Shown one piece after another: positions 4,113 to 34,938 of a stretch of 45,102 nt of DNA. How positions within the stretch are numbered: the first letter of the stretch is position 1; each line of letters opens with the position of its first letter. A program made the translations under genes and the position numbers. The notes under the pieces were generated by a model. It did not search any database and was not told the origin of the DNA. It was given only the letters and a program-made list of their open reading frames with translations. The DNA is from a virus. The stretch is taken from the IMG/VR virus record IMGVR_UViG_3300033388_008211, positions 1 through 45,102 of that record; one strand, written 5' to 3'.

Positions 4113-4174
4113 ATATCCGGTTTACCCCCTCAATAGTATCCATAAGGTGACATATGTCTGACTAAACATGGTTA
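4113..4174 (+). other. attI-B: attI-like site B (second copy, without adjacent integrase)
   Basis: A 62-bp element matching 12673-12734 at 59 of 62 positions in the same orientation. It contains the perfect palindrome GACATATGTC and ends ACATGGTTA; similarity to the other copy stops right after GTTA, the point where an integron integrase would cut (G^TT). Immediately to its right begins a second cassette series. In copy A the left end covers the intI start codon; here the equivalent triplet is altered (ATG to ATA) and no intI sequence follows, so it is a duplicated site, not a remnant of a second integrase gene. Confidence 0.75.
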
Positions 4175-4178
4175 TGCA

Positions 4179-4329
4179 CTACCACGCTATACCTTTAATG
4201 TGTATTTCTTTGTCGCAGTCTGGGCAGTCTATCTTTTTTTCAAACTTGTCATGTTCCTCATTCCATATACCATTTGGACAAGCTTTCAACGAACAACTCA
4301 ATATCAAGTCTTGCTTCTACAGTTTTCAT
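4179..4329 (-). pseudogene. Broken cassette gene B1: phage zinc-ribbon protein remnant
   Basis: The frame begins MKTVEARLDIELFVES at ATG 4329 and stops at 4258. A second, shifted frame then continues ACPNGIWNEEHDKFE ... IDCPDCDKEIHIKGIAW to TAG at 4181-4179. The two parts read like the start and end of one family of short phage proteins with a CPxC zinc ribbon, so a deletion or frameshift has broken it. It occupies the first cassette after attI-B, in reverse orientation, and ends a few bases inside the attI crossover core like its neighbours. Confidence 0.55.
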
Positions 4330-4342
4330 AAGATCATCCCCG

Positions 4343-4440
4343 TGCATAACCAGGCGTTTCAAAGGAAATTTACCACGGATTCCGCCCGACTATTTGAAGT
4401 TTTGTCCAGTGGCAAATTCCACTGAACTTGAATGTTAGTT
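4343..4440 (+). other. attC-B1: attC-like site B1
   Basis: Left arm begins GCATAAC (4344-4350) and the right arm ends with the core GTTAGTT (4434-4440). The arms pair over AAAGGAAATTTACCAC against the reverse complement of GTGGCAAATTCCACT, as in folded integron attC hairpins. The stop codon of the next reversed cassette gene is the TTA of this core. Confidence 0.7.
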
Positions 4441-5286
4441 TGTTGCCGCCATCAAATCAAATCTGTCGAACTCGTCGCCATTACCATTGCAGCCCCATTG
4501 AGACGTAGTGTGCTTGTTCTTTCTAATGCCATCCAATAGTTGATTCTCTGCAATCCGAAGAAACCAGTTTTCTATATGTGTGTCTGCCCTAAGTAATCCG
4601 CGCTTAATGTCTCTCATGCCTTCGCTGAAAGCAACATGCACTGCTTCGTTTACATTGTCTCCGCAGACCCCTTTGAATTTACTCTGTAGTATTTTCCTCA
4701 TTTTGTCAGTCTTTTGCATTACGAAACTGTCGAGGGCCATCTGGTTGCCATCAATAAAGGCCAAAACCTTTTTCCCTAATTCAGAATGAACCGACTTTCT
4801 AAATTGAATCAACCCGTCATTATCTACAGGCGGGTTTTCCCACCACCATTCGATATTGTCAGCGCGGCAGTCTAGGGCATTCCCGTTTTTAAATGTTACA
4901 TGGGCGCTGTCAAACTTATTAGGGATAAATGCTTTGGCTACCTCCAAGTGAACATACAAGAATTTAACCCAGCCTCTTGTAGCCCTCCTATCCAAATAAA
5001 CACGCTTCTTAGGGGTGTTCATATGACTTCTTTTTTCGATCTGTGGTTTTATCAATACCCCTAGGGTTACAAGAGACTTAACACGCCCCATATTGCTAAC
5101 CTGATACCCCTCTGCCTCTTCAATGTCGGCCCACAACTCCCCAGCCAAGTCCTCAACTGGCATGGCCTCCGGCAATATGCGCCCCAATCTCCATATTTGC
5201 TGATAATGTTTATTGCAGAAGCCTTTAGATAGATGGGGCTTTTCGCAGTCTCTTATCATACATTGTGTGTATTTAATTCTTGCCAT
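4435..5286 (-). CDS. Zinc-finger / NUMOD4 / degenerate HNH protein with sigma-70 region 2-like C terminus (cassette B2)
   Basis: A 283-aa protein with an unusual domain order. Residues 9-30 form a Cys/His finger (C9, C14, C24, H27) common in front of phage HNH proteins. Residues 51-76 match NUMOD4 (WADIEEAEGYQVSNMGRVKS). Residues 112-150 follow the HNH_3 fold (VHLEVAKAFIPNK ... VTFKNGNAL ... NIEWW), but the usual catalytic VNH is VTF, so cleavage activity is probably lost. Residues 186-262 resemble region 2 of ECF-type sigma factors: a helix, then NEAVHVAF at the place of the acidic 2.2 helix, then ENWFLRIAENQLLDGIRKNK, which fits the WLyrIArNlaiDhlR signature. No region 4 is present. ATG 5286 has GGAGAGGTG upstream. 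It is reversed within its cassette and ends on the attC-B1 core. It may be a DNA-binding regulator derived from a homing-type nuclease. Confidence 0.6.
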   Translation of the reverse strand: MARIKYTQCMIRDCEKPHLSKGFCNKHYQQIWRLGRILPEAMPVEDLAGELWADIEEAEGYQVSNMGRVKSLVTLGVLIKPQIEKRSHMNTPKKRVYLDRRATRGWVKFLYVHLEVAKAFIPNKFDSAHVTFKNGNALDCRADNIEWWWENPPVDNDGLIQFRKSVHSELGKKVLAFIDGNQMALDSFVMQKTDKMRKILQSKFKGVCGDNVNEAVHVAFSEGMRDIKRGLLRADTHIENWFLRIAENQLLDGIRKNKHTTSQWGCNGNGDEFDRFDLMAATN

Positions 5287-5315
5287 TTAATCACCTCTCC
5301 TCAAAGTTAAGATCC

Positions 5316-5392
5316 AAACTAACAAAACGCTGCACACGACCGCTAACGCTCATTCCATTCGCTATCGCGACTCGTGAGCTTGGCGTTATGCC
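5316..5392 (+). other. attC-B2: attC-like site B2
   Basis: Begins AACTAACAAAACGCTGC (from 5317) and ends GAGCTTGGCGTTATGCC, core G5385^TTATGCC. The inner arm CACACGACCGC is shared with attC1, attC5 and attC-B3. This is a textbook-looking attC: AACAA on the left, GCGTTA on the right, about 77 bp. Confidence 0.85.
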
Positions 5393-5751
5393 TGCTGCTG
5401 GCAATCTGAGCAGCCGTTGCATTTTTCACCGCCAGGGAATACCTTGTAGCCCGAACACCTTCTTTGCTCTTTTTCTGCCAAGTGTTGCGCCCGGGTCTTT
5501 CCGAAATGTTTTTCAGCGCATTTCTGGCAAAAATATACTCCGCAATAGAGGCACCTAAATGCCAACCAGAGAGGGAATTCTATTTCACAAGAACAATTTA
5601 CAGCTGAGGATTTCATAGCCTGCATGGTTTGCTTTCTCACAAACTCACGTTTCTCCAGGTCAACGTCAGGCATAACAAATTTATGCAACCGACCGCTACC
5701 CGTGGTGCTTAATTGATCTGCCTTGCTTCCTGTTTCCGTTTTCTTGCTCAT
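5386..5751 (-). CDS. Cysteine-rich zinc-binding cassette protein (B3)
   Basis: A 121-aa protein with start ATG 5751 (AGGAG six bases upstream) inside the loop of its own attC. Residues about 53-80 contain C-x-C ... CLYCGVYFCQKCAEKHF, a treble-clef-like zinc site, and a second cluster CSGYK ... CNGCSDC lies at the C terminus. Residues 19-30 (GRLHKFVMP) are encoded by the left arm of the attC. The stop TAA is the reversed TTA of the attC-B2 core. Function unknown; small zinc proteins of this kind are common accessory phage genes. Confidence 0.7.
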   Translation of the reverse strand: MSKKTETGSKADQLSTTGSGRLHKFVMPDVDLEKREFVRKQTMQAMKSSAVNCSCEIEFPLWLAFRCLYCGVYFCQKCAEKHFGKTRAQHLAEKEQRRCSGYKVFPGGEKCNGCSDCQQQA

Positions 5752-5795
5752 ACGTCTCCTTTCTAAATGCGGCCGCTGATAATGCCGTTCGGCAT
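5669..5795 (+). other. attC-B3: attC-like site B3
   Basis: Left arm GCATAACAAATTTATGCAAC then CGACCGC; right arm GCGGCCGCTGATAATGCC then core G5787^TTCGGC. The long central loop carries the ribosome site and start codon of the reversed cassette gene. The core is less regular (GTTCGGC) than the GTTATGC type. Confidence 0.7.
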
Positions 5796-6265
5796 CAAAC
5801 CTTAGGATAAACCGAAATATCTATCACCTTGTAGAATCCATCAAGTTGTATATTTGCACCAACCCGCCCAAGGGGCTTATTCTCAATGCCCCCAACAAGC
5901 TTTCCATTTAAGCCATTTTTGAGGTGCAACAATAAGTCTATCGGGTCAACGGCCTTTTTTGTCCAGGGTGCCGCAATCACATCAAGGTCACGCTCCTTTG
6001 AACCATGCTCCCCAATGGCATAGCCAACCTCATACGCTAACTCACGGATAAGATCAATTGGTGGTAACTTTGGCTCCTCCCAACCTTCGCATGGCTCAAA
6101 TGTCGCTTCCCCACATTTCCAGCATTTAGCGCCTTTTCGGGGGGCCTTACATTGGGGGCAACGCCGAACCCCGTCATTCGAGAGGGCTTTGCTAACAGTG
6201 TTGTCTTGTTTACTTTGGTCGATCACAGCATGGTTTCTCAGGCTTATTTTCGTTGTCTCTTTCAT
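5795..6265 (-). CDS. Phage-type accessory protein with N-terminal zinc ribbon (cassette B4)
   Basis: About 156 aa from ATG 6265 (TTAGGG upstream; the longer frame begins with TTG and is not preferred). A zinc ribbon CPQCKAPRKGAKCWKCG lies near residues 36-53. The rest (LPPIDLIRELAYEVGYAIGEHG ... RDLDVIAAPWT ... GFYKVIDISVYPKV) resembles a family of phage hypothetical proteins that looks nucleotidyltransferase-like (RDLDVIA). No function can be assigned with confidence. It ends TGA eight bases inside the attC-B3 core and begins inside the degenerate last attC of this array. Confidence 0.7.
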   Translation of the reverse strand: MKETTKISLRNHAVIDQSKQDNTVSKALSNDGVRRCPQCKAPRKGAKCWKCGEATFEPCEGWEEPKLPPIDLIRELAYEVGYAIGEHGSKERDLDVIAAPWTKKAVDPIDLLLHLKNGLNGKLVGGIENKPLGRVGANIQLDGFYKVIDISVYPKV

Positions 6266-6292
6266 TTGCAAAACCCTAATTTAAACGTACTA
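6190..6292 (+). other. Degenerate terminal attC of array B
   Basis: TTGCTAACAGTG (6190-6201) could be a left arm and GCAAAACCCTAATTTAAACGT then ACTAACG a right arm whose core reads GTACTAA instead of GTTCTAA. Arm pairing is weak. It marks the probable right end of the second array; the last site of the first array is degenerate in the same way. Confidence 0.35.
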
Positions 6293-6299
6293 ACGCCTA

Positions 6300-6491
6300 T
6301 CAAATGCGCACATCCAATAATAATGTTGTGCACTCCACCTTACTCTCACCCCCCTCTCTTAAATTATTTATTATTTTAACTTCAATATTTTCCACTATCA
6401 ATCCTGTTTCTTCGGAGAATTCCACAACTAGTTTACGTATAGCAATCTCAATTTGCATTTTCTTGATCTTAATCTGCTCAATATCCATCAT
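6300..6491 (-). CDS. Small hypothetical protein, not recognised
   Basis: A 63-aa protein with ATG 6491 preceded by AAAGGAG. It is mostly alpha-helical in appearance (IEQIKIKKMQIEIAIRKLVVEF) followed by a beta-rich charged end (VENIEVKIINNL). No motif was recognised. It lies between the Mor-like regulator gene and the last degenerate attC and is probably the last resident phage gene before the array. Confidence 0.6.
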   Translation of the reverse strand: MMDIEQIKIKKMQIEIAIRKLVVEFSEETGLIVENIEVKIINNLREGGESKVECTTLLLDVRI

Positions 6492-6499
6492 AGACTCCT

Positions 6500-6820
6500 T
6501 TAATTAGCGGGGAAAAAAGAAACAAGAGGTTTATGGACTATCCTCCTGATCTGCCGGACGCTTAACTTTTCTTTAAATTCCGCCTCTACGATCTCAGCAA
6601 TTTCAGAATAAGTGTTTTTAATGAATAACTGTTTAATATATTGGTTTCTAAGGGTGATAAATATCTGAGTAGAGTGAGGCACCTTTACTTGCTCCCCGTA
6701 ATGTTCATTACATATTCTCTTGAGAACCATTGAACCTTTTGGAAATCCGAATATCTCATTCAAGAGAACTTCTATTTTCCCCATAAACCCATAAGTTTCT
6801 TCATTCAAATCACTAGACAT
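6500..6820 (-). CDS. Mor-like helix-turn-helix regulator
   Basis: About 106 aa from ATG 6820, which has AGGAAAGGGAAG just upstream; a longer frame to 6916 runs through the recombinase gene and is not used. The N-terminal half resembles a dimerisation domain. The C-terminal residues 70-100 (YIKQLFIKNTYSEIAEIVEAEF then LSVRQIRRIV) fit the HTH of Mor/C-type phage activators. It overlaps the end of the recombinase gene by eight bases, so the two are coupled. It could activate a late promoter; no target site was identified. Confidence 0.5.
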   Translation of the reverse strand: MSSDLNEETYGFMGKIEVLLNEIFGFPKGSMVLKRICNEHYGEQVKVPHSTQIFITLRNQYIKQLFIKNTYSEIAEIVEAEFKEKLSVRQIRRIVHKPLVSFFPAN

Positions 6821-7760
6821 CTTCCCTTTCCTCCAATTCTTTCCACCTTTTATCAGATATGGCCGTCTTCTTAAGGACCTTGTCGGATATGACGATATAA
6901 CCCTGTGTCGTTTCAACGCTGGAATGTCCCAGGAGCATAGATATCTCTATTAAACCATGATCAGCATCGTAGAGATCCGTAGCGAATGTAGCGCGCACTT
7001 TATGGACGAAAACCCGCTCATTTTTTATACCTACGGCCGCAGCGTATTTCTTTAGAATATTATTGTATGAAACTTTCGAGAGGTTTGACCCCACCTGAGG
7101 AGGGCGGAAAGATACAAACAAGGCTCTCTCTCCCGGGGCGGCATACTGCTCTCGTATAAAAAGCCAGTTCCGGAGATTGGAAGAGGCGCGGCGCCGTAAT
7201 CTGACAGTGCGCTCCTTTGCACCTTTTCCCTGGATATAAATATAGATATCGTTACCGGTGAAGCGAAGGTCATCGATAACCATCTCTCGGATCTCTTCCA
7301 CCCGGGGGCCACAACCGTAAAGAACGGTAAGTATGGCCAGATCACGGATCCCCATAGGAGAGGTCAGGTCAGGTGCGGTGAATATCGCCTTTAGTTGAGC
7401 TGTGCTGAACTTCTGAGGCATCACCTTCGCCACTTTCGGCGAAGGAATTCTGACGGCAGGATCCTCGTTCTTATCTATGGCACCGTCATAAGCAAGAAAT
7501 GCGAAAAATTTCTTAATGGCTGCCAGCTTCGAGGCTCGGGAGCTGTTCTTCATATTCCCCTGGTTATAAAAGAGGTCCTTTAGCCAGTCCTCGATATCGG
7601 CCTGAGATATAGTATCGGTTCCCCCCTCGACCCCCCTGGAGGCAATCCATTTTTCAAAGCGGGTTAAGGTGTAACAATACCTTTTAATCGTTCCATCTCT
7701 AAAGCCTAGAACAACCCTTAAGTGCTCTTGAAAACGCGGTAGACAGTCTGAAATAGTCAT
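6813..7760 (-). CDS. Tyrosine recombinase (phage integrase/XerC type)
   Basis: A 315-aa site-specific DNA recombinase. The N-terminal core-binding domain (about 1-100, SAM-like helices) is followed by the catalytic domain with all usual residues: R153 in GCGPRVEEI, K179 in QGKGAKER, H253-x-x-R256 in HKVRATF, H279 in LLGHS and Y288 in QGYI. It lacks the IntI-specific insertion, so it is distinct from the integrase at 11610-12674. It is the better candidate for a prophage integrase or a dimer-resolution recombinase. ATG 7760 is preceded by GGGGGGAA. It follows the origin-like region and leads the operon that ends in cassette array B. Confidence 0.9.
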   Translation of the reverse strand: MTISDCLPRFQEHLRVVLGFRDGTIKRYCYTLTRFEKWIASRGVEGGTDTISQADIEDWLKDLFYNQGNMKNSSRASKLAAIKKFFAFLAYDGAIDKNEDPAVRIPSPKVAKVMPQKFSTAQLKAIFTAPDLTSPMGIRDLAILTVLYGCGPRVEEIREMVIDDLRFTGNDIYIYIQGKGAKERTVRLRRRASSNLRNWLFIREQYAAPGERALFVSFRPPQVGSNLSKVSYNNILKKYAAAVGIKNERVFVHKVRATFATDLYDADHGLIEISMLLGHSSVETTQGYIVISDKVLKKTAISDKRWKELEEREDV

Positions 7761-8179
7761 TTCCCCCCGGCCCCCCTGTTTTTACCCTTTTTCAAAAACC
7801 TATTACAATTTATAGTGACAATTAGGGTAAGAAATCTAGCTTTTAAACCTATATTTTTAATGGGGGGGGTGGTACTCATAATCATAGTAAATACACCAAG
7901 AGTTAACATATTAAAGCTTATAAGACACAATAAAGACAGTTAAGTATTTGTTTTATATAACTATCTTATTTTACCACTAGTTATCAACAGGTAAAAGAGC
8001 CTAGTTATTAACAATTCATTTAGCTTCGTTCCAACACCATTCAAAAAGATACACCAATACAGAGACTCAACAGGATCAATTTAAGCTAGTAGTGATAAGG
8101 GTTAAAGAACAATTAAACACTCTTTTAAATACCTTTATAAAACACTCTTTTCAGAAACCTTTTAACTACGATTCATAAA
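7761..8179. other. Non-coding A/T-rich region upstream of the recombinase
   Basis: No gene of reasonable size. It contains a DnaA-box-like TTATCAACA near 7980-7988, a run of eight G (7862-7869) and A/T-rich DNA. A promoter and perhaps an attP for the recombinase may lie here, but I cannot point to a convincing one. Confidence 0.5.
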
Positions 8180-8430
8180 GAAAAGAAGGTGATCAACTAT
8201 AACCTGGTGATCATACCCTCCTTGTCCGGCCTTCCCGTTTCCCGTAACCTACATCAAACCCTTATCCAGTAAGGGCCAACAACCTACGGGAAACCGTTAG
8301 AGATACCCTTAGACTTCCCGTAGATTTCCCCCACTTTCCCGTAGATTTCCCCCCCGATTTCCTGTGCGATTTCCCGTTATTTATATTTATATTTCAATAA
8401 CTTAGATAGATATATATATAAAGGGAAATC
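8180..8430. other. Candidate replication origin with iterons and A/T-rich segment
   Basis: Two exact 18-bp direct repeats (TTCCCGTAGATTTCCCCC) lie at 8315-8332 and 8336-8353, a 21-bp period or two helical turns. A diverged third copy follows (TTTCCTGTGCGATTTCCCG, about 8358-8376) and a related CTTCCCGTTTCCCGTAA lies near 8230. GGTGATCA occurs twice near 8190-8215 and a TTATCCAGT DnaA-like box near 8262. The right edge (8376-8422) is nearly all A/T, as in a DNA-unwinding element. It borders the primase-helicase gene. Confidence 0.55.
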
Positions 8431-8433
8431 GAT

Positions 8434-8467
8434 TCTGAAAAATGCTCTCACTCTGAAAGAGCTTTTG
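8434..8467 (-). terminator. Terminator after the primase-helicase gene
   Basis: On the minus strand GCTCT (8462-8458) pairs with AGAGC (8448-8444) and is followed by ATTTTTC. The plus strand also ends in TTTT, so it may act both ways. It separates the early operon from the origin region. Confidence 0.6.
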
Positions 8468-8486
8468 ATAAAAAAATATAGAATCA

Positions 8487-11400
8487 TCACCAATCTATAG
8501 CCTTTATTTCCTTACTGAATCTCCAGTAATTGTCGTTGTTCTTGAGGAAGTAAGGCGCCAGCTTCTTATTCTTCCCTAACAGTAGCTCCCACCCTCCCTT
8601 TACCAGGATATCTTTATCGTTGCCTATCCTTGCACCCAACGCCGAAGCATTAGCAAAAGGGTTAGGGATATGCTGCCCTTTCAGGTATCTGGTCATAAGG
8701 GTATGCAGGTCCTTCGAGGAAACGATAAATTCGAAGCGCTGCACCCGGGTCATAAAGAGATCCTCGTCATCACCGTTATATTCATAAGGCTCGGTAAGAT
8801 AGAAACTTTCAATATATTGAATATCTTCGTAGATTTTAACCTTGGTGTCGTCATAATAATAAGGCTTTTTAAAATACCTGTGCTCCTCATACTTAATGTT
8901 CTGTCCCAGCTTCCGGATAGTAAAGCAGACCTCTTTCTGAAGGCCATCTATATGAGTCAATAGAGTATTGGAGGTGAGCGCCGTTTCCGCTGCTTGGTCG
9001 TCCTGATACTCTATCCACTTTTTAAGGATCATAGCCGCGTCTTTTTTTGCCGAATGCTCTTTGTTCACCGGTATGTGCTTAAGCAGTGCCTCGAGGATTA
9101 TCATCATAGTGCAGAGGTGCTCATTATTTCGCTCTTTATTATGCCCGGGAAAGTGAGTGTTGATCTCTTGCATCCAGAAGGTCCTCTCCTTCATCCTGGG
9201 AAGAACTTCACGGCCGATCATTTTAAGGATCGCTGAAATCATCATCGGCCTGTCCCGTAGGATATCCCCCAGACATTCGCTATGAACGTAGCCACCTTCC
9301 ATGCGGTACCTGCCCTCGCAGATTATTGGAAAGGTCCTATTTATCAGCTCCGGATATTTACCCGGGAAAGGCTCGATAGAGGTGATCATCCCCATGGAAT
9401 CCAGCTTCTGGTAGACAACGTCCGTGTCGCTCCCAGCTGCAGCCTTTGGCGTCATAGCAGAGTTGGCCAGGAAGAGGAGAAAATCAACCACACCCTGATT
9501 AAGGTTTTGGTTCTCTATGTTGTCCAGGAAAATAATAGGGTTTCTCGTTGCGATCCTCTTTGCAGCCGCACCCGTTCCCCTTCCTATAAAGGTCTCTCCA
9601 TAGATGAGCTGACTCCATCTTTCGGCAACCTTCGATTTTCCCACCTGGCTTGATCCGATGATCTGCACCAACCCCCTGTCTGTCTGGTAGTTTATAAGGA
9701 ACGTAGAGAGTACCCAGCAGGCTAGGAAGTACCTTTGAGCCGGCTCACAGGGCATAGGGTCCATTAAATGTTTTTTCAGCGCGCTAAAGCCTTCGGCTTC
9801 GCTGGTGTTGGGTTTATAAGCGAGTTCGCGAATCTGTGGTGAAGAGTTCAACAACACCGAATTTTCATTCGTGCCGTTGTCTATGGTGACCGGCTCTTCG
9901 CCGGCAGTTACTTTTATGATTTTGTGCATAGGAAGGGTCAGGTTGTAGTAGACAGTGGCCGTCTCCCTGCAGGTATATGTCCAGCTCATCATATCCACAG
10001 GTTCGCCCTTATCGATGCAAAAGGTTTTTAGGTAATACCATACCTGAGTACCCGGAGATTCGCATTTTCCAAGGTGCGTCAGGCGCAGCATTATGGCATT
10101 GAAAGGGTTGTTGTCGCCTATCTCGTAAATAACCCCGTGATAAAAAATCCACGCTTTAGAGTCTGACGTTTTAAAGAAACGTCCGGCGTTATTCTCGAAC
10201 CATTTATAAATATGATCGGCAACTGTTCTGGCTTTGTGATGTTTATAGTCCCTGAAACGCTCTTCCAATTCGCCGTGAAGGTCTGCACTACCCGCCTGCT
10301 CAAGAATACTCTCGACCCCTTTTATGGAAAGAGGTATAGCCTTGGCCAACACCTCCGTATAAACCTCACGCTCAGCATGGGAAGTCAAAGAGTTAATCCA
10401 TTGAGGGATTCGCCGCTCCTTCAAAACTACGATAGTATCCTTTGTGTCCTTAATCAATTTTAGAAGCTCAATCTCCCACTCCAGGGGCGAAAACGCCGCC
10501 TTCATCAGCTCCTTAATGGCCTTCCTGGCCGCTGCTTTATCCTTCTCCTTTAGTATTCCCTGGATAAAGTCGTCAGGGTCCTTCGCTTCTCCCGGGTGCA
10601 TAATAATCCGGACGTCTACGGAAGACTCTTCCAGACCTTTATAGAGAAGCCTTGTATGAGCTGGTCCTCCCTGTGACTTCTTAGGATCCTTGTCGGGGTC
10701 CTTATCAAACCAGAGGTAAACCGTCTTGCCGGCACAATGGTTTTTGACCTTCTTAACCTGGTCATTACCCGGTCCTCCGCAAGTGCCTACAACGTTCTTG
10801 AACCCGGCATCGATGAGGCTGGCTATGTCGTGCTGACCTTCAACTATGAAGAGGTCCCCATACGGCCCCAAGGCGGCGTGATTGATAAACCAGTCCTTCT
10901 TGATTCCTTTCATCTGCTGGGCGGTGAACTTCTTCTCCGGATCTTTCACGGTGAGGCAGATCACCTTGCCGGCATGATCGATGACAGGGAATACAGCCAT
11001 ATCTTTTTTCCAAAAGAAGTCCCTCGTCTGCTTTAAAGGTTCTCCTTTTGGATCTTTGTCTACGACCAGACCATGATTCACCAGCTCTGAAGTAGTGAGA
11101 CCTTCCTTCCTGAGAGCTTTACCAAGACCACCATCCGTCCACCCCATCTCCATGGTTTCCATTGTCTCATCAAAGTGGCCACGATCGGTAAGGAAGTACT
11201 TAATGGCCTTGTCGCTACTGCCGTCCGCCCTCACCCCTTTATAGTATTGGAGGGCAAGGCGCAGCGGGTTTTTTTTCTCGCTCTCGGCCTGTTCCTGGAT
11301 CTGCTTCACTGAACCAGATCCGGATGGAGGGGTGAGCGCGACATTCCCGATCTCCGCGCAGATCCTCAAAGCCTCGGCCTTGTCTACACCGTCACAGGTC

Positions 11401-11600
11401 ATAACCAGGTCGATGACAGAACCAGCCAAAGGGCAGGAAAAGCAATTAACAAGGTTGTCCCCCTCATCGATGCTGCAGCAGTCATGTCCGCCACAATTCG
11501 GACATTCATCGGCAAAACCCTTAACCACCTTTCTGCTATACCGGGCAAGTGCCTCGTTAATCGATACCGCCAGTTTTACCTTCTTAAAATCATCGCTCAT
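8487..11600 (-). CDS. Primase-helicase (CHC2 zinc finger, TOPRIM, ATPase)
   Basis: A 1037-aa replication protein. Residues 33-56 form a CHC2-like zinc finger (CPNC ... CFSC). A TOPRIM domain begins near residue 250 (FIVEGQHD) and continues with a DxD-type motif near 295 (WFDKDPDKD), the catalytic signature of DnaG-type primases. The C-terminal half holds a P-loop ATPase with Walker A near residue 650 (GSSQVGKSK) and Walker B near 692 (IIFLDNIE), resembling superfamily 3/D5-like or plasmid helicases more than DnaB. This would prime and unwind at the nearby origin. It follows the integron integrase by nine bases and is probably co-transcribed with it and the cassette array. The only obvious replication enzyme here, so a host DNA polymerase is presumably used. 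Confidence 0.82.
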   Translation of the reverse strand: MSDDFKKVKLAVSINEALARYSRKVVKGFADECPNCGGHDCCSIDEGDNLVNCFSCPLAGSVIDLVMTCDGVDKAEALRICAEIGNVALTPPSGSGSVKQIQEQAESEKKNPLRLALQYYKGVRADGSSDKAIKYFLTDRGHFDETMETMEMGWTDGGLGKALRKEGLTTSELVNHGLVVDKDPKGEPLKQTRDFFWKKDMAVFPVIDHAGKVICLTVKDPEKKFTAQQMKGIKKDWFINHAALGPYGDLFIVEGQHDIASLIDAGFKNVVGTCGGPGNDQVKKVKNHCAGKTVYLWFDKDPDKDPKKSQGGPAHTRLLYKGLEESSVDVRIIMHPGEAKDPDDFIQGILKEKDKAAARKAIKELMKAAFSPLEWEIELLKLIKDTKDTIVVLKERRIPQWINSLTSHAEREVYTEVLAKAIPLSIKGVESILEQAGSADLHGELEERFRDYKHHKARTVADHIYKWFENNAGRFFKTSDSKAWIFYHGVIYEIGDNNPFNAIMLRLTHLGKCESPGTQVWYYLKTFCIDKGEPVDMMSWTYTCRETATVYYNLTLPMHKIIKVTAGEEPVTIDNGTNENSVLLNSSPQIRELAYKPNTSEAEGFSALKKHLMDPMPCEPAQRYFLACWVLSTFLINYQTDRGLVQIIGSSQVGKSKVAERWSQLIYGETFIGRGTGAAAKRIATRNPIIFLDNIENQNLNQGVVDFLLFLANSAMTPKAAAGSDTDVVYQKLDSMGMITSIEPFPGKYPELINRTFPIICEGRYRMEGGYVHSECLGDILRDRPMMISAILKMIGREVLPRMKERTFWMQEINTHFPGHNKERNNEHLCTMMIILEALLKHIPVNKEHSAKKDAAMILKKWIEYQDDQAAETALTSNTLLTHIDGLQKEVCFTIRKLGQNIKYEEHRYFKKPYYYDDTKVKIYEDIQYIESFYLTEPYEYNGDDEDLFMTRVQRFEFIVSSKDLHTLMTRYLKGQHIPNPFANASALGARIGNDKDILVKGGWELLLGKNKKLAPYFLKNNDNYWRFSKEIKAIDW

Positions 11601-11609
11601 TATTTATCC

Positions 11610-12674
11610 TTAATGTAAAATTTTTGGGCTTTGTATCTCTTCTATAACAGGACTTCCCGGCACCACCCTATCTATGGTATTAACTATTCCCGGCCTTTTC
11701 GGAGCCTCTTCTGTTAAATCATCATAAGGGCTGCGGACAGTGCATTGCTTCTGCATCACATGAGTATAAACCATTGTGGTGGATATGTCTTTATGTCCCA
11801 AAAGCTCCTGTATCGTTCGAATATCATAGCCAACCTCCAGCAGATGTGTCGCAAAGCTATGGCGAAAAATATGACAAGTCACCCTCTTGCGGACCCCCGA
11901 TTTCAATGCGGCACGCTTAACAGCTTTGGGAAGATTGTCCTCATGAATATGTGTCCTGATCATCTTGCCTTCTTTGGACTTGATGATATTCTTCGAAGGG
12001 AACACATATTGCCACATAAGCTCCCTGTCGGCATTCGGATATTTCCTGGGAAGGGCGTTCGGCATATCAACGCGCCCACACTCCTTTTTAAGATCTATAC
12101 TGTGCTGGCTTTCAACCTTATCGATCTGGGCCTTGAGAGAGGACACAAGCCGCTCGGGAAGCATAGTGATCCTGTCCTTACTTCCCTTTCCTTCACGTAC
12201 AATCACTTGGCCGCGAGCGAAATCAATATCCTTGACACGAAGGCGCAGGCACTCCTTAAGCCTGAGTCCGCAACCATATAAAACAGAGGCCATCAGGCCG
12301 TTAACGCCGCTCATTTCATTAAGAACAAGATTCACTTCATCCCTGGTAAGCACCACAGGCAACCTCTTCGGCTTCTTGGCCCTCACAGCATCGATCTCGC
12401 TATTTACTTCAAGGCCGAAGACTCGCTTATAGAGAAAAATAAGAGCGCTCAAAGCCTGGTTCTGGGTGGATGCTGAAATATTCCCAGTCTTTGCACGATA
12501 CGTCAAAAAGGCCTCGATCTTCTTTTCCGGAGAGATGTCAGGTCCATAACCATTAACCCTGAGAAAGTGGATATAAGCCCTTACATGACTGGCATACGCA
12601 TCAAAGGTCTTGATAGAGTAATGTTTCAAAAAAACCTTTTCCTTCAACTTTGCGATCGTCTCTTTCTCGTTCAT
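11610..12674 (-). CDS. intI: Integron integrase (IntI family tyrosine recombinase)
   Basis: A 354-aa recombinase that would insert and excise gene cassettes by attI x attC and attC x attC recombination on folded single-stranded attC DNA. The N terminus has the IntI-like [18 protein letters not shown] (68-85) and [11 protein letters not shown] (104-114). Catalytic residues are R138 (GCGLRLKE), K163 (GKGSKDR), H268 and R271 ([12 protein letters not shown]), H294 (LLGHKD) and Y303 (MVYTHV). The insertion that separates IntI from XerC/D is present at about 200-226 ([19 protein letters not shown] then WQYVFP). The ATG at 12674 overlaps the attI-like element. A C-terminal tail of about 35 aa extends beyond most IntI proteins. 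It lies between the array and the primase gene on the phage-sense strand, so the early phage operon can express it. No LexA-like box was seen. Confidence 0.93.
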
Positions 12675-12734
12675 GTCCGGTTTACCCCCTAAATAGTATC
12701 AATAAGGTGACATATGTCTGACTAAACATGGTTA
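12673..12734 (+). other. attI-A: attI-like site A beside the integrase gene
   Basis: The 62 bp between the intI start codon and the first cassette, ending CATGGTTA with core G12731^TTAGCA. It is repeated at 4113-4174 (59/62 identical). It includes the palindrome GACATATGTC and the G/C-rich block TTTACCCCCT. Position, length and the exact end at the crossover core fit an integron attI. Confidence 0.8.
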
Positions 12735-12762
12735 GCACTCTAAACACTTAAAGGAGAATTAA

Positions 12763-13107
12763 ATGGACAACATAATAAAATTCCCCACAAAGTTAGTTCG
12801 CAACAAAATAGCTTTTGAAGAGGCGTTAAAAAAAGAAATGTCACATGTCGCAATGGATGCAGCCTTAAAAGATGAATTAACGCAGCGAATGACAGCCATT
12901 TGGGAAAAGTATCAATTCGAATATCAGCTGCAATATACATTACCATTGCCCTCTTCCATGACACAAGTTGAAATTGACAATATTCGTTCATCGATCACGA
13001 AATCTATCCAGGGGTTTCATGATGGTTTCTACGGTTTTTTGGATACCCTTCTCACCGAAAGGATTGCCGCTGATCGTAAGCTTTTCTTTATGGAGCACAA
13101 TCTTTGA
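12763..13107 (+). CDS. Cassette A1 protein, the only plus-strand gene
   Basis: A 114-aa protein with AAAGGAG seven bases before ATG 12763. It begins MDNIIKFPTK and has an acidic/amphipathic helical middle; no domain was recognised. It lies next to attI in the usual integron position and orientation (same sense as the attC), unlike every other cassette gene here, so phage transcription would run through it antisense. Expression would need a Pc-type promoter inside intI or attI; I could not identify one with confidence. Confidence 0.7.
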   Translation: MDNIIKFPTKLVRNKIAFEEALKKEMSHVAMDAALKDELTQRMTAIWEKYQFEYQLQYTLPLPSSMTQVEIDNIRSSITKSIQGFHDGFYGFLDTLLTERIAADRKLFFMEHNL

Positions 13108-13157
13108 TTCCTTGGCTTTATTTAATGAAATATCCGGCGTTCTAACGGCAGTCATTG

Positions 13158-13284
13158 TGCTAACCAAACGCTGCACCCGACCGCTAATAGTGGTTTTGAT
13201 TTGAGTTAATCTGCTTTTAAAGTTATTCATATTGTTCTCCATGTCACTAGCGCATTTCGCGGCCGGTGACCTCAATCGTTATAT
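13158..13284 (+). other. attC1: attC-like site 1
   Basis: Left arm TGCTAACCAAACGCTGCACC then CGACCGC; right arm GCGGCCGGTGACCTCAATC then core G13278^TTATAT. The arms pair over TAAC...CACC.G.CCGC, with the left arm one base longer, as expected for the extrahelical bases that set attC polarity. The loop carries a reversed ATG with GGAG upstream (13230). Confidence 0.85.
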
Positions 13285-13545
13285 TTCTAAGCGGTTAAAT
13301 TCACCTTCATACCGGTAAAACTCATCGCTGCCTGGGAAGCCGTATGCGGCACCATCAAAAATGTAGATTCCGGCATCTGCCGGGACTTTCGATCCCTCAG
13401 CAAAGAAGTCATCAAGACATGCGCCGTACTCATCAACATCGGTTTTTACTTCAGGGTTATCGGCAGGCTCCATTAATTCAAGCAAGCATCCGCCTCCGCC
13501 TAAGCCAATCGCTACTTTAAGTTTTACGCTAGTAATTCGTTCCAT
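13279..13545 (-). CDS. Small acidic cassette protein (A2), not recognised
   Basis: An 88-aa acidic protein with GAGGTG upstream of ATG 13545. A glycine-rich hydrophobic stretch (VAIGLGGGGCLLELM) lies at 12-26; the rest has many Asp, Glu and Tyr (IYIFDGAAYGFPGSDEFYRYEG). No family recognised. The stop TAA is the reversed TTA of the attC1 core, and the gene start lies 14 bases before the left arm of attC2. Confidence 0.7.
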   Translation of the reverse strand: MERITSVKLKVAIGLGGGGCLLELMEPADNPEVKTDVDEYGACLDDFFAEGSKVPADAGIYIFDGAAYGFPGSDEFYRYEGEFNRLEI

Positions 13546-13558
13546 TTTTCACCTCGAA

Positions 13559-13652
13559 ATATAACAAAATTCTGCAAGGGACATGCCCTTACTGGGTTCA
13601 ATTTCTATTCGACACATTCCCAAAGGGCAAGCCCCTGAGAAAACCGTTATCT
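13559..13652 (+). other. attC2: attC-like site 2
   Basis: Left arm ATATAACAAAATTCTGCAAG then GGACATGCCC; right arm GGGCAAGCCCCTGAGAAAACC then core G13646^TTATCT. The left arm has an extra A (GGGACATG against GGGGCTTG) at the place where Vibrio VCR sites have their extrahelical base, which sets plus-strand polarity. Confidence 0.88.
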
Positions 13653-13967
13653 TGCAAGCCCTTTCAGGAAAGTCTTGATCTGTTTAATAACGTGATCAAA
13701 GTTTTCGTCATTAGTTTCTTGCCTTTTCTTAACATCCACGCCTGTCCTTTCGTTCACATGATTCACAATCGCCATCGCAAGACACTCTAGGTCGTAAGGG
13801 GCGATGCCACATAACCCCACGCTGCAAGCTACTTCGGCCACATCGTCTTTTCCAACGTAAGAAATGGCTTCATTTATTATGGCCCTATCAAATTGCTCAT
13901 GAGGGCAATCAACTCCGAAGCGATCTTTCACACGCTTTAAATGTTTTATTAAACTTTGTTTGTCCAT
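13647..13967 (-). CDS. Cassette A3 protein, not recognised
   Basis: A 106-aa protein with GGAGGAGATGGAGAA before ATG 13967. It is largely helical with three cysteines (CPHEQFD, CSVGLCG, CLAMAIVNHV) and a basic C terminus. No family recognised. Stop TAA is the reversed TTA of the attC2 core. The start lies within the proposed attC3 hairpin. Confidence 0.68.
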   Translation of the reverse strand: MDKQSLIKHLKRVKDRFGVDCPHEQFDRAIINEAISYVGKDDVAEVACSVGLCGIAPYDLECLAMAIVNHVNERTGVDVKKRQETNDENFDHVIKQIKTFLKGLAR

Positions 13968-14015
13968 TTCTCCATCTCCTCCAGCGTCCGAAGACCCTGA
14001 GCTTAATTGTTAGAG
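13883..14015 (+). other. attC3: attC-like site 3 (left arm weak)
   Basis: The right arm CTGAGCTTAATT then core G14009^TTAGAGC is clear. A matching left arm is only approximate (CCTATCAAATTGCTCATGAGGG near 13884) and would include the start of cassette gene A3. The stop of the next gene falls on the core as elsewhere. Confidence 0.5.
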
Positions 14016-14210
14016 CTTTGGAGTAAACTCAAGGCATTCTTCCTTGTGCTCCACTTTTACAAGCTCAAAATATTCTTCTGGATAATCATCAACTAATTTT
14101 AAATAACTCATTCGAGCAGGCCTTTCGATGGATGATTCAAATATTACTTGCAGCCAGCTTTTATCAACACTTTTTATTTGTTGTCTTACTTCAAATTTAA
14201 ACATAATCAC
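14010..14210 (-). CDS. Small cassette protein (A4), not recognised
   Basis: A 66-aa protein, ATG 14210 with AGAGGTG upstream. Mixed beta/alpha, charged (FKFEVRQQIKSVDKSW ... YPEEYFELVKVEHKEE); no cysteine cluster or membrane segment. Its stop TAA is the TTA of the attC3 core read in reverse. No family recognised. Confidence 0.65.
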   Translation of the reverse strand: MIMFKFEVRQQIKSVDKSWLQVIFESSIERPARMSYLKLVDDYPEEYFELVKVEHKEECLEFTPKL

Positions 14211-14301
14211 CTCTAACCAATCGTTGAAAAAGGACTGGCTTATACGGGTTTCGTTTCAAGTAGGCTTGGTTGCGCCAGCCCTTTAACTCTAATCGTTATA
14301 T
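14211..14301 (+). other. attC4: attC-like site 4
   Basis: Left arm CTCTAACCAATCGTTG then AAAAAGGACTGGC; right arm GCGCCAGCCCTTTAACTCTAATC then core G14295^TTATAT. Arms pair strongly (AAAGG.CTGGC); the left arm is one base longer, giving plus polarity. Confidence 0.88.
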
Positions 14302-14535
14302 GTGCAGTCCTAAAATACAACCAAAGTCTTTCTCTGTAAAAAAGGCAATCAAACTGTAACCCTCCATTCCGGCTTCCACTTCTACTTCAACCTTTTCCCT
14401 CAACTTCTGGCATTCTCCCTCAGAAAACTTGTCTGTTGGTCTCTCCCAGTATTTACAAACATCACATATAACAATCGGCTGCACCCGACCGCTTTCAGCG
14501 GTCTCCTCCTGGTTTTCAACACTGTCTTTTGGCAT
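14296..14535 (-). CDS. Cysteine-containing cassette protein (A5)
   Basis: About 79 aa from ATG 14535, chosen because AGGAGAGG lies just upstream; a longer frame to 14607 has no such site. Residues 24-42 contain CDVCKYWERPTDKFSEGEC, a possible metal-binding cluster with a further Cys near the end. Residues 15-21 (SGRVQPI) are encoded by the attC5 left arm, and the start codon lies in the attC5 loop. Stop TAA is the reversed TTA of the attC4 core. The CKYWE...GEC pattern occurs in small phage and bacterial hypothetical proteins. Confidence 0.68.
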   Translation of the reverse strand: MPKDSVENQEETAESGRVQPIVICDVCKYWERPTDKFSEGECQKLREKVEVEVEAGMEGYSLIAFFTEKDFGCILGLHI

Positions 14536-14588
14536 AGCTTCCTCTCCTTTCAATCTTGGGTTCGCGGCAAGTGAGCCAAGCGTTCTAA
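14466..14588 (+). other. attC5: attC-like site 5
   Basis: Left arm ATATAACAATCGGCTGCACC then CGACCGC; right arm TTCGCGGCAAGTGAGCCAAGC then core G14582^TTCTAAG. Belongs to the same subfamily as attC1, attC-B2 and attC-B3. The large loop holds the ribosome site and start of the reversed cassette gene. Confidence 0.85.
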
Positions 14589-14791
14589 GGCTTCCCAGCC
14601 ACACCACAATAGCCTTTTCTTGGCATCCCTTTTGGCGTTCCTATTTCATCTCTCCACATCATGCAACTGGAGACTATGCAGCTTGCCGCCTCATAAGTAA
14701 TCTCTTGAGAGTTTTTCAGCGAAGCATTGGAGCCTTCTATTTTCAATTCTGGGCACCACTTCGTTTTTGCTTCTTCTTCTGTCCAATACAT
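14585..14791 (-). CDS. Phage-type cassette protein with GYCGxAGKP end (A6)
   Basis: A 68-aa protein, ATG 14791 preceded by AAGGAGG. It contains KWCPEL near 11-16, then a cysteine/methionine patch (CIVSSCMMWRDE, about 39-50) and ends GYCGVAGKP. This order matches a family of short phage hypothetical proteins of unknown function, an indication that cassette genes come from phages. Stop TAG begins directly after the GTT of the attC5 core (GTT^CTA). Confidence 0.7.
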   Translation of the reverse strand: MYWTEEEAKTKWCPELKIEGSNASLKNSQEITYEAASCIVSSCMMWRDEIGTPKGMPRKGYCGVAGKP

Positions 14792-14817
14792 TTTATTTCC
14801 TCCTTAATAGGCCCGCC

Positions 14818-14907
14818 TTAGAACCAGCGGGTCAACCAGACACCTAACGGTGTCTTTGAGTTTCATAGTGGGCTTGGTTTAGGTGCTTGTTACCCTTTTA
14901 GTTATAT
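14818..14907 (+). other. attC6: attC-like site 6
   Basis: Left arm TTAGAACCAGCGGGTCAACC then AGACACC; right arm GGTTTAGGTGCTTGTTACCC then core G14901^TTATAT. The left side includes a perfect hairpin GACACC-TAAC-GGTGTC. Nearly identical to attC8 and attC10, so these cassettes share a source or were copied. Confidence 0.85.
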
Positions 14908-15075
14908 TTCTCTATAAAGAATGTCATACATCCAAAAACAGCATATTAAAAATTCTATGTCGTGCCTATTTATCAAGCTTATACTTCCAGCGAGACAAAC
15001 GCACATAGTAATATATATCAGCCCAGTTGCCCTTCTCTCTTTAAGGTCAGATATGCTTGCGTCTTTAGCTTTCAT
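14902..15075 (-). CDS. Small membrane protein in cassette A7
   Basis: A 57-aa frame with GAGGTGAAAG before ATG 15075. A charged start (MKAKDASISDLKERRATG) is followed by two hydrophobic stretches (LIYITMCVCLAGSISLI and FLICCFWMYDILY), so it probably sits in the inner membrane. The stop TAA is the reversed TTA of the attC6 core. No family recognised. Confidence 0.6.
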   Translation of the reverse strand: MKAKDASISDLKERRATGLIYITMCVCLAGSISLINRHDIEFLICCFWMYDILYREI

Positions 15076-15102
15076 CTTTCACCTCATAAATAAAGTTTTA
15101 AA

Positions 15103-15233
15103 ATATAACAAGTCACTGCAAAAGGACTTGCTGTTAGCGGTTTTGAATCGAACTGTCCGCGCTTAAACCAATTTTCCCACATGGGAAATATGGTCGGCTT
15201 TAATCCGCAAGCCCTTGAGTTCTAGCGTTCTAA
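15103..15233 (+). other. attC7: attC-like site 7
   Basis: Left arm ATATAACAAGTCACTGC then AAAAGGACTTGC; right arm CCGCAAGCCCTTGAGTTCTAGC then core G15227^TTCTAAG. Inner arms pair over AAGG.CTTGC...GCGG and the loop contains a further palindrome (TTTCCCACATGGGAAA). Close relative of attC11. Confidence 0.87.
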
Positions 15234-15442
15234 GGCTTCTCTATCCTATTTGCAGAAACTCTCATCGCCGACATTATGCTATCTACATCACAACTCGAAA
15301 CATCCGCAGCGAATATTATTTCCATGCATATTTTAAAGTTATGTCCGGCTAAGGCGCATCTCTTTAATTTGATGTGAAATTCATCAAGCTCATAACGGTC
15401 GTTTGCGCTCAATATTACGTCTAATTCTTTTAATGTCTCCAT
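15230..15442 (-). CDS. Small cassette protein (A8), not recognised
   Basis: A 70-aa helical protein with GGAGATGAT before ATG 15442. It has three scattered cysteines and many acidic residues (METLKELDVILSANDRYELDE). No motif recognised. The TAG stop follows directly on the GTT of the attC7 core. Confidence 0.65.
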   Translation of the reverse strand: METLKELDVILSANDRYELDEFHIKLKRCALAGHNFKICMEIIFAADVSSCDVDSIMSAMRVSANRIEKP

Positions 15443-15465
15443 ATCATCTCCTCAATAAGCCCGCC

Positions 15466-15555
15466 TTAGAACCAGCGGGTCAACCAGACACCTAACGGTG
15501 TCTTTGAATTTCATAGTAGGCTTGGTTCAGGTGCTTGTTACCCTTTTCGTTATAC
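15466..15555 (+). other. attC8: attC-like site 8
   Basis: TTAGAACCAGCGGGTCAACC on the left; GGTTCAGGTGCTTGTTACCC then core G15549^TTATAC on the right. Differs from attC6 at only a few positions. Confidence 0.87.
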
Positions 15556-15556
15556 A

Positions 15557-15763
15557 TTAATCGTGATAACCATAAGGCTTTCCACAATTAATGCAAAATT
15601 CACTATCTGTTCCGTCAATAATTTCTCTATATCCTTTACCCTTGAAATGGAAACAAATTCCAACTTTCCATAGGTGATAATAATGTTTTACTTTGTAGTA
15701 ATATTTGGGGCCGTAATGACCTAAATAAATTCCCAACAAAATGTATAACAATTCATTCAACAT
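15557..15763 (-). CDS. Small membrane-anchored cassette protein (A9)
   Basis: A 68-aa protein starting in the loop of attC9 (GGAGGAACG before ATG 15763). Residues 1-19 are hydrophobic (LLYILLGIYLGHYG), a probable N-terminal anchor, followed by a Tyr/Lys-rich region (KYYYKVKHYYHLWK) and a CxxC pair (FCINCGKPYG) that could bind metal. The first residues MLNELLYI are encoded by the attC9 arm itself. The stop lies seven bases inside the attC8 core. Confidence 0.65.
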   Translation of the reverse strand: MLNELLYILLGIYLGHYGPKYYYKVKHYYHLWKVGICFHFKGKGYREIIDGTDSEFCINCGKPYGYHD

Positions 15764-15816
15764 CAGTCGTTCCTCCTTTGGACGGCTGCGCCGCCAGTTA
15801 ATTCAAGTCGTTATGT
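15743..15816 (+). other. attC9: attC-like site 9 (aadA-like subtype)
   Basis: Left arm GTATAACAATTCATTCAAC; right arm GCCGCCAGTTAATTCAAGTC then core G15810^TTATGT. The TAACAATTCATTCAA / TTAATTCAAG pair is very like attC sites of mobile-integron resistance cassettes. A GGCTGCGCCGCC hairpin forms the tip. Confidence 0.85.
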
Positions 15817-15827
15817 TTACTTTCCTC

Positions 15828-16004
15828 TCAATAGAACCATCCACTATAAGGAACTTCGTAAGGTTCTTTGCAAGGTTCTTCTCGTTTCGGTAGTGATTCC
15901 CTATCCATTTCCTTGAGCGGCTGGCTGCATATATCGTGATGAGGAATATTGTCTTCATCTGATTTATCACTTAGCGGGATCTTTATTTTTTTAGAAAAAC
16001 TCAT
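15828..16004 (-). CDS. Small hydrophilic protein in cassette A10
   Basis: A 58-aa frame with AAAGGAGAAAAAAGG before ATG 16004. Highly charged and probably unstructured (MSFSKKIKIPLSDKSDEDN ... PLKEMDRESLPKREEPCKE), ending PYEVPYSGWFY. No family recognised. It ends 17 bases inside the attC9 core and is the only gene in the cassette. Confidence 0.5.
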   Translation of the reverse strand: MSFSKKIKIPLSDKSDEDNIPHHDICSQPLKEMDRESLPKREEPCKEPYEVPYSGWFY

Positions 16005-16033
16005 CCTTTTTTCTCCTTTCTTCCACTGGCAAA

Positions 16034-16123
16034 CATAAACAGCGGGTCAACGCAGACACCTAACGGTGTCTTTGAGTTTCATAGGTAACTTGGTTCAGGT
16101 GCTGGGTACCCTTTTCGTTAAAC
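16034..16123 (+). other. attC10: attC-like site 10
   Basis: Left CATAAACAGCGGGTCAACGC then AGACACC; right GGTTCAGGTGCTGGGTACCC then core G16117^TTAAAC. Same subfamily as attC6 and attC8, including the GACACC-TAAC-GGTGTC hairpin. Confidence 0.85.
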
Positions 16124-16339
16124 CCATTTCTTTTGAAAGGTCTGAGTCCTGTAGTAAGCTTTATTTCCACCGTCATAAACGACCATGCCAGGCTGAAGCT
16201 TTTTATACGCCGTGAAATCTCTTGTGGCAGTCGCTGGGCCTATCCCAAAAAAGTCCATAATTGCGCCTCTATTTACATAGCCGTATTCACCCAAAAGAAA
16301 ATCAATCATTCTCAATCTCTGTTCTATTGCGTATTTCAT
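16118..16339 (-). CDS. Winged-helix DNA-binding protein (WYL/DeoR N-terminal-like), cassette A11
   Basis: A 73-aa protein consisting only of a winged HTH: RLRMIDFLLGEYGYVNRGAIMD (helices 1-2), FFGIGPATATRDFTAYKKL (turn and recognition helix) and a short wing (VVYDGGNKAYY). The arrangement resembles the N-terminal DNA-binding part of WYL-type regulators, without the WYL ligand domain. It could regulate the phage operon or host genes. GAGGTTCCC lies before ATG 16339. Stop TAA is the reversed TTA of the attC10 core. Confidence 0.65.
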   Translation of the reverse strand: MKYAIEQRLRMIDFLLGEYGYVNRGAIMDFFGIGPATATRDFTAYKKLQPGMVVYDGGNKAYYRTQTFQKKWV

Positions 16340-16353
16340 GGGAACCTCAAAGG

Positions 16354-16484
16354 GTTTAACAAGTTACTGCAAAAGGACTTGCTGTTACCGGTTTTAAATT
16401 TCAGTTATTCGATATTTTCGAATAACTCAGCTAGAGTCAAGGCGTTGCTCTTAATCCGCAAGCCCTTAACTCCCACATTATGGT
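16354..16484 (+). other. attC11: Terminal attC-like site 11 (degenerate core)
   Basis: Left arm GTTTAACAAGTTACTGC then AAAAGGACTTGC and right arm CCGCAAGCCCTTAACTCCC match attC7, but the core reads CACATTATGG where GCGTTCTAAGG is expected. It closes array A. The loop holds a TTATTCGA...TCGAATAA palindrome. Loss of the crossover G would prevent normal cassette exchange at this end. Confidence 0.75.
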
Positions 16485-17275
16485 CTCTGGTATTCAACTT
16501 TCACCCCCAACCTCTCCGCCATCTCTTTCAGTTTCTTCTTTGAAATCGACTTGCCATTAATAACGTTCGACACGTCCCTCGGATTGAAATTATGAGACGC
16601 TGCAAAAGCCGCCTGACTTGCGCACCCTTTCATCTTTTCAGATATAGCGACGGCCACCATTTCAACCGTTTCAGAAAATACTGAAACATTCCCTTTACCC
16701 GTTTCAGTATTTTCTGAAACAAATCGGCGGCAGAATTTCACCGCTGAAATCTCTGTCAACATTACAACGAAAAAGACCGCCGACAGCATCACGGCTACGG
16801 CATAAAGCCTCCATGACGCTTCAGCCTTTTCGGGTGCCGATATTTCTTTCCTGTAGTTCTTACGAGCGGTATTGAGGAGGGCTTGTGTCGGTTCAACACG
16901 GTCGGCAGATCGCTTATATTTCTTACTGTTCTCCTCATGTTTTTTAAGAGAGGCCTCCAGCTGTGCCATCTCATCCAGGTACGATGCGGCCATAACTGAA
17001 GACACTTTAACTTCTCCGATCTTTTCGAAAACGGGTGTTGATATCTGGTACCACGGACCGGCAATAAGAAGCGTTGCGATAACAACACGAACCTTTGGCA
17101 GCTGGTTGGTATACCAGTTCCAAAGCATGGCTCCATGCAGCGCGATCGAGAAGGCAATCCCACTGTAATAATCACCGGTGAATTCCTGCCAGAAGGGAAT
17201 GCTGTGGATCTGCATCAATCCAGTCGAGAGGATGATCACAACTATGGCCATCTTTTTATCAAGTGTTTTGTTCAT
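16478..17275 (-). CDS. Multi-pass membrane protein with cytoplasmic helix-turn-helix domain
   Basis: About 265 aa from ATG 17275 (AAAGGAATTGAT upstream), preferred to 17305. Three or four transmembrane segments lie in the N-terminal 90 residues (AIVVIILSTGLMQIHSI; SGIAFSIALHGAMLWNW; VVIATLLIAGPWYQI), then a charged coiled coil (about 110-165), a further membrane segment near 175-195 (LYAVAVMLSAVFFVVML) and a C-terminal XRE-like HTH (ASQAAFAASHNFNPRDVSNVI). A membrane-tethered DNA binder is unusual in phages; it might sense membrane state or tether replicating DNA. Its last codons overlap the attC11 right end, where the stop TAA is the TTA of the degenerate core. Confidence 0.6.
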   Translation of the reverse strand: MNKTLDKKMAIVVIILSTGLMQIHSIPFWQEFTGDYYSGIAFSIALHGAMLWNWYTNQLPKVRVVIATLLIAGPWYQISTPVFEKIGEVKVSSVMAASYLDEMAQLEASLKKHEENSKKYKRSADRVEPTQALLNTARKNYRKEISAPEKAEASWRLYAVAVMLSAVFFVVMLTEISAVKFCRRFVSENTETGKGNVSVFSETVEMVAVAISEKMKGCASQAAFAASHNFNPRDVSNVINGKSISKKKLKEMAERLGVKVEYQRP

Positions 17276-20830: not shown

Positions 20831-20888
20831 GTAGGGGCAATCCCTTGTGGTTGCCCTTCTCCAGGGCGGGCACGAGACCTGCCCCTAC
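20831..20888 (-). repeat. Palindromic dispersed repeat, copy 1
   Basis: A 58-bp element bounded by GTAGGGGC and GCCCCTAC inverted ends, with a nested GGGCGGGC/ GCCC inner arm. It matches 28905-28962 in the opposite orientation at about 51 of 58 positions. This style of repeat is common in bacterial chromosomes, so it probably came from the host. Confidence 0.8.
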
Positions 20889-20907
20889 AATTTAAAATAT
20901 TTGTCGC

Positions 20908-34914: not shown

Positions 34915-34938
34915 ATATTAATTATTAACTATCAATTG

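Follow-up and report, generated by a model that had tools for sequence, protein, structure and literature searches.

Whether a tailed phage can own an integron is the question raised by a stretch of 45,102 nt from a virus (IMG/VR record IMGVR_UViG_3300033388_008211, positions 1 to 45,102), hereafter the window. Integrons are usually examined as a means of gene capture in bacteria, with phages regarded as mainly accidental carriers. A first-pass annotation of the window, made from its letters alone, had read an integron integrase gene (intI), an attI site, and an array of single-gene cassettes separated by attC sites, and had proposed that the phage captures and shuffles accessory genes. The observation was confirmed by the present analysis, and its interpretation was supported: the integron of the window is very likely genuine, complete, and resident in the phage, and it has two cassette arrays.

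The intI product scores 397 bits against TIGR02249, the integron integrase model (cut-off 265), and far below the cut-offs of the XerC and XerD models (158 of 335 bits and 154 of 330 bits, respectively). In an alignment with eleven other IntIs, the catalytic residues R138, K163, H268, R271, H294, and Y303 are all present, as is the IntI-specific insertion already noticed in the first-pass annotation. The IntI tree places the protein inside the IntIs, and not with XerC/D, apart from two Xer-like recombinases, one of which is the phage's own (96/98), with the caveat that a third Xer-like row, from virus Rctr41k, was misplaced among the IntIs by its long branch. An identity as a Xer or phage integrase was consequently rejected, given the insertion and the XerC/D scores, and this IntI-type tyrosine recombinase is probably catalytically active.

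The attC sites were searched with a two-arm model (R'', L'', L', R', with a free loop between the arms), trained solely on other integrons. The training set comprised 27 attC arms, 24 from cellular genomes (two phylum-level samples) and three from a V. anguillarum phage integron. The ten best plus-strand matches in the window (18.3-32.7 bits) all fall within two short regions, seven at 13158-15816 (18.3-30.7 bits) and three at 4344-5793. The next-best plus-strand match reaches 13.7 bits, and one minus-strand match (19.2 bits) is at the level of shuffled sequence, as 12 dinucleotide shuffles gave 0.5 matches of at least 18 bits per window, with a maximum of 19.4. Over the ten sites, 128/170 stem positions are paired, versus a mean of 59 and at most 81 in controls with a shifted right arm. 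Several sites share one orientation, the four boxes, the extrahelical base, and the G^TT core. About eleven sites had been read by the first-pass annotation, and eleven can be recognized by hand in the right array (array B), seven of these being supported by the independent model.

Other approaches to attC detection gave less. A Rfam gathering scan of the window returned no attC family match, and a covariance model built from joined arms gave no match, probably because its length limit is shorter than real attC loops; the two-arm model was used instead. For most sites, plain DNA folding failed to give the canonical attC form, and the first hand-made hairpin finders were dropped as too noisy. 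Several attC hairpins overlap terminator-like matches, which would suit an ordinary Xer or phage integrase lying beside terminators or chance repeats. This explanation is scarcely conceivable, as TIGR02249 is well above its cut-off while XerC/D are far under theirs, and a model trained elsewhere finds sites whose stem pairing exceeds the control maximum.

The 62-bp element described earlier between the intI start and the array was recovered as a candidate attI (attI-B), and a second copy (attI-A) was found. The two are 95% identical as far as G^TTA, where the crossover is expected, and beyond this point the cassettes diverge. The locus had been taken for a single array; the second attI in fact heads a left array (array A) containing three more attC sites (Table 1). 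One IntI may serve two attI copies, each heading its own cassette array, and both copies are probably used by it. An exact attI search of IMG/VR gave no match. At another locus (L125), attI and a truncated intI are duplicated upstream of the full intI (5677-6599 / 8971-9893, 92% identical over 923 nt); extra attI copies could arise by duplication of this kind.

Table 1. Integron features and neighbouring genes in the window.
Feature	Position	Strand	Remarks
attI-A, candidate, second copy heading left array	4113-4174	+	62-nt repeat
Cassette A1 ORF, 42 aa	4179-4307	-	
attC A1, left array	4344-4440	+	21.4 bits
Cassette A2 gene, NUMOD4/HNH endonuclease, 283 aa	4435-5286	-	
attC A2, left array	5317-5391	+	28.4 bits
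Cassette A3 gene, 121 aa	5386-5751	-	
attC A3, left array	5670-5793	+	32.7 bits
Cassette A4 gene, 158 aa (phrog_35913)	5795-6271	-	no attC found beyond
Mor-like late activator	6500-6916		weak match
Second tyrosine recombinase, Xer-like, not IntI	6813-7760	-	found also in relatives without intI
Primase-helicase	8487-11600	-	phrog_47; marks conserved intI locus; synteny in relatives
intI, integron integrase, 354 aa	11610-12674	-	TIGR02249, catalytic residues, IntI insertion, tree
attI-B, candidate, adjoins intI start	12673-12734	+	62-nt repeat; crossover expected at ATGG^TTA
Cassette B1 gene, 114 aa	12763-13107	+	sole cassette gene in canonical direction
attC B1	13158-13284	+	27.4 bits
Cassette B2 gene	13279-13545	-	antisense to attC
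attC B2	13559-13652	+	18.3 bits
Cassette B3 gene	13647-13967	-	antisense to attC
attC B3, partial	13965-14015	+	R' present, R'' missing; by eye, no model match
Cassette B4 gene	14010-14210	-	antisense to attC
attC B4, weak	14211-14301	+	long L'-R' spacer; by eye, model <11 bits
Cassette B5 gene	14296-14607	-	antisense to attC
attC B5	14466-14588	+	30.7 bits
Cassette B6 gene	14585-14791	-	antisense to attC
attC B6	14818-14907	+	23.9 bits
Cassette B7 gene	14902-15075	-	antisense to attC
attC B7	15103-15233	+	23.2 bits
Cassette B8 gene	15230-15442	-	antisense to attC
attC B8	15466-15555	+	30.1 bits
Cassette B9 gene	15557-15763	-	antisense to attC
attC B9	15743-15816	+	21.1 bits
Cassette B10 gene	15828-16004	-	antisense to attC
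attC B10, weak	16032-16123	+	degenerate relative of B6/B8; by eye, model <11 bits
Cassette B11 gene	16118-16339	-	antisense to attC
attC B11, terminal	16354-16487	+	R' broken (ATTATGG); by eye

Both arrays lie on the circular genome of a tailed phage (Caudoviricetes). The IMG/VR record is a virus genome closed by a 57-nt end repeat (1-57 = 45046-45102), and an open reading frame (ORF) of 624 amino acids (aa) in the terminase position spans the join; the terminase is assigned by this position and large ORF only, with no family match. Capsid E (387 bits), a gpD-like decoration protein, portal, tape measure, endolysin, and primase genes are also present, in agreement with the circular contig carrying all virion genes that had been described. 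On the minus strand, the order is array B, attI-B, intI, primase, a presumed, repeat-containing origin (7.8-8.5 kb, recognized by eye), the Xer-like recombinase, a Mor-like late activator, array A, attI-A, and then lysis and terminase genes. The integrase gene thus sits between an array and the primase gene, as first read. The two arrays would flank a replication module made of intI, primase, presumed origin, and Xer-like recombinase, and the integron region appears to be part of a long co-directional phage operon. In the structural region, two arms of a 60-nt inverted repeat (88% complementary) lie 8 kb apart (20831-20890 / 28903-28962), and AT-rich short tandem-like repeats at 34912-34945 and 36629-36690, possibly late regulatory sites, flank the capsid and decoration genes.

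As a single metagenome contig, the window could result from the misassembly of a host integron onto phage sequence. The chance of this is very slight: the genome is circular with an ORF over the join, corresponding junctions, including the intI-primase adjacency, recur in contigs of several other metagenomes, and a related phage contig, L140, has two arrays in equivalent places.

The cassettes are mostly single-gene units bounded by attC sites, and their genes are unusually oriented: 14/15 are antisense to attC, in the same direction as intI and the phage operon. Among the reversed cassettes that could be tested, 10/13 have their stop codon within the R' box of the neighbouring attC. Viral cassettes over all loci compared comprise 24 sense and 26 antisense, versus 39 and 3 for cellular ones (Fisher p = 3e-6), these counts being noisy automated longest-ORF calls and partly non-independent, as a few viral arrays nearly duplicate each other. 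In 22/23 loci with both array and flank direction assigned, the phage genes at the flanks point the same way as intI, so that transcription of a canonical cassette would oppose the phage operon. Whether cassette direction tracks flank direction in viral loci was uninformative, nearly all flanks pointing one way. Promoter-like matches for the cassette promoter (Pc) are no more frequent than in shuffles, and 14/15 cassette genes face away from the Pc direction. The reversal of most cassettes would allow phage transcription, rather than Pc, to read their genes, with the R' box usually providing the stop codon, and the window cassettes are probably expressed in this way. Almost no Pfam or PHROG matches were obtained for cassette functions. 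One cassette is occupied by a homing-type NUMOD4/HNH endonuclease.

Relatives of the phage were collected from IMG/VR by primase and portal alignments. In L127, L132, L140, L147, L212, L226, L232, L237/L238, and L241, the gene immediately upstream of the same primase is intI; many other family members have none at this locus. L140 (about 51% identical to the window in intI, about 30% in primase, and 54-59% in portal) repeats the plan of array B, attI, intI, primase, tyrosine recombinase, array A, and attI copy, its own attI pair being identical over 30 nt. L212 is 97.6% identical to L140 over 3.5 kb of the primase region and is without about 292 bp containing attC, cassette, and attI-A. L233, whose primase is 87% identical, has no intI, and its homology to L140 starts just past the intI stop; the integron therefore comes and goes at fixed places. 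A further relative, L219, carries five attC sites upstream of the primase (7692-9150) with no adjoining intI, that is, a cluster of attC sites lacking an integrase (CALIN).

These relatives also bear on the idea that IntI is the phage's own integration enzyme, targeting attI/attC of a host integron, with cassettes as a by-product. The attC sites flanking V. anguillarum phage p16 (PMC9892861) and the direct repeats formed by the two attI copies would fit, but almost every relative checked has a second, Xer-like recombinase, whether or not it has intI, and the attI copies flank the replication module and not the genome ends, making this quite improbable.

Cassette turnover was examined at the viral loci recovered by an IntI alignment search of IMG/VR (80 loci kept), which was needed since a single-sequence pattern protein search of the genomes returned few relatives. 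At least one attC of at least 25 bits was found at 50/79 viral intI loci scanned, and two or more of at least 20 bits at 33/79; terminase matches (two families) occur on 16/50 of the attC-bearing contigs. Two of these phages, L157 and L155, are 99.9% identical in their backbones and differ by whole cassettes inserted or lost (c1-c2-c3-c4-c5-c6-c7 in L157; c8-c9-c2-c3-c10-c4-c6-c11-c7 in L155). Portal, capsid, tape measure, and tail fibre genes mark L157 as a tailed phage. In a second pair, L158 has two extra cassettes relative to L156, which carries terminase, tail, and virion genes; all array joints of this pair were checked, and each falls at G^TT. Whole-cassette differences with G^TT joints constitute a sequence-level signature of integron recombination in phage genomes, and it is in these other phage pairs, not in the window phage, that shuffling is seen. 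Elsewhere, a 43.7-kb viral contig (L004, 6970-10376) has six attC beside an intI without its central catalytic part, and a phage contig (L001/L087, IMGVR 3300035042_000148) encodes a full-length IntI over the cut-off, with no attC of at least 18 bits found.

As to the origin of the integrase, a rapidly built tree groups 25 viral IntIs, among them eight of the nine belonging to the phage family of the window, in a viral-only cluster (approximate likelihood-ratio test support 85); as it derives from a small cellular sampling, this clade is a lead, not a result. The window IntI lies outside it, on a long branch, nearest to cellular IntIs in free trees. Forcing it into the cluster is not rejected, the likelihood being slightly above that of the free tree. 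A single intI origin in the family was rejected (approximately unbiased test, p about 1e-33). The family's IntIs are not one clade, and intI was therefore acquired or exchanged more than once; it appears to move among phages and to have been repeatedly acquired.

An alternative is a hitchhiking host integron, a chromosomal fragment captured by the phage and reduced to a passive relic, as in the V. anguillarum prophages. Precedents are known (PMC9892861), the window IntI is nearest cellular IntIs in the free trees, and some attC are degenerate. The closest sampled cellular IntI is only 55-56% identical, at the end of a long branch, and no IntI or attC near-identical to those of a host integron was found in the incomplete cellular sampling. 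With intI intact, its place upstream of the primase recurring over the phage family, arrays turning over in other phages, and a cassette orientation unlike that of cellular integrons, hitchhiking is unlikely.

Several points weigh against a resident, working phage integron. The first-pass annotation had suggested looking for related phages with other cassettes at 12735, and no phage near-identical to that of the window but with another set of cassettes was found, the exact attI search included. Four right-array attC (B3, B4, B10, B11) are weak or broken, and the crossover G of attI-A reads A in L140. Array A is, by the comparison of L212 with L140, dispensable or recent. The noise and near-copies in the orientation calls, and the scattering of the family's IntIs over more than one clade, also count here. 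The resident integron nevertheless remains the preferred reading, and it presumably benefits the phage. Beyond it, the chances are about even that a phage-adapted integron branch exists, with IntI lineages mainly among phages, located beside the replication module, with cassettes inverted for operon expression and an extra attI allowing one integrase to run two arrays, so that phages own and trade cassettes.

The first-pass annotation had taken intI on complete phage genomes to be rare or undescribed; phage integrons are in fact not undescribed. Among 10,705 phage genomes, Qi et al. (2023) found one In0 and three complete integrons, most of them derived from hosts or of class 1, as well as 17 CALINs, and showed that phage attC sites work with IntI1 (PMC9892861). 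No later report of phage-resident integrons was found in a literature search with preprints and most subscription papers outside its scope. Like the window, those cases (V. anguillarum p16/p42, P1 with a class 1 integron, Shewanella M16-3, and lytic-phage CALINs) have intI and attC in phage genomes, together with attI, for which the window has candidates; where their integron is complete, it matches one of a host or of class 1, or is located in a cryptic prophage (PMC9892861), whereas in the window a divergent IntI and mainly reversed cassettes lie at a replication locus that is conserved over a phage family. With sedentary chromosomal integrons, the window shares an intI that diverges from the array, a candidate attI in between, and attC oriented away from attI, but it differs in that most cassette genes are antisense to attC and run with intI, in its short arrays, and in its second candidate attI and array. 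Rctr41k (KX853513) is another tailed phage with a complete integron (intI and six attC at 33-41 bits), although its array is 3' of intI, its genes are in the attC sense, and its intI has another genomic context. This GenBank phage (L011, 4680-10101), from a DAMO/AAA enrichment, has cassettes including a methyltransferase and an intI annotated xerD, and the word 'integron' is absent from its source paper (PMC5099504). New here are the conserved phage locus with the two-array layout, the inverted cassettes, the whole-cassette differences between phage pairs, and the attC sites at 50 or more viral intI loci.

Overall, some phages appear to own an integron system rather than carry a piece of their host's. 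If true, a conserved phage integron with cassette turnover would give phages a built-in means of swapping small accessory genes, plausibly for counter-defence or regulation, and would open a cassette route between phage and bacterial integrons. The phage pairs offer natural before-and-after material for cassette turnover, and inverted cassettes with R'-box stop codons provide a simple, testable signature for finding more phage integrons.

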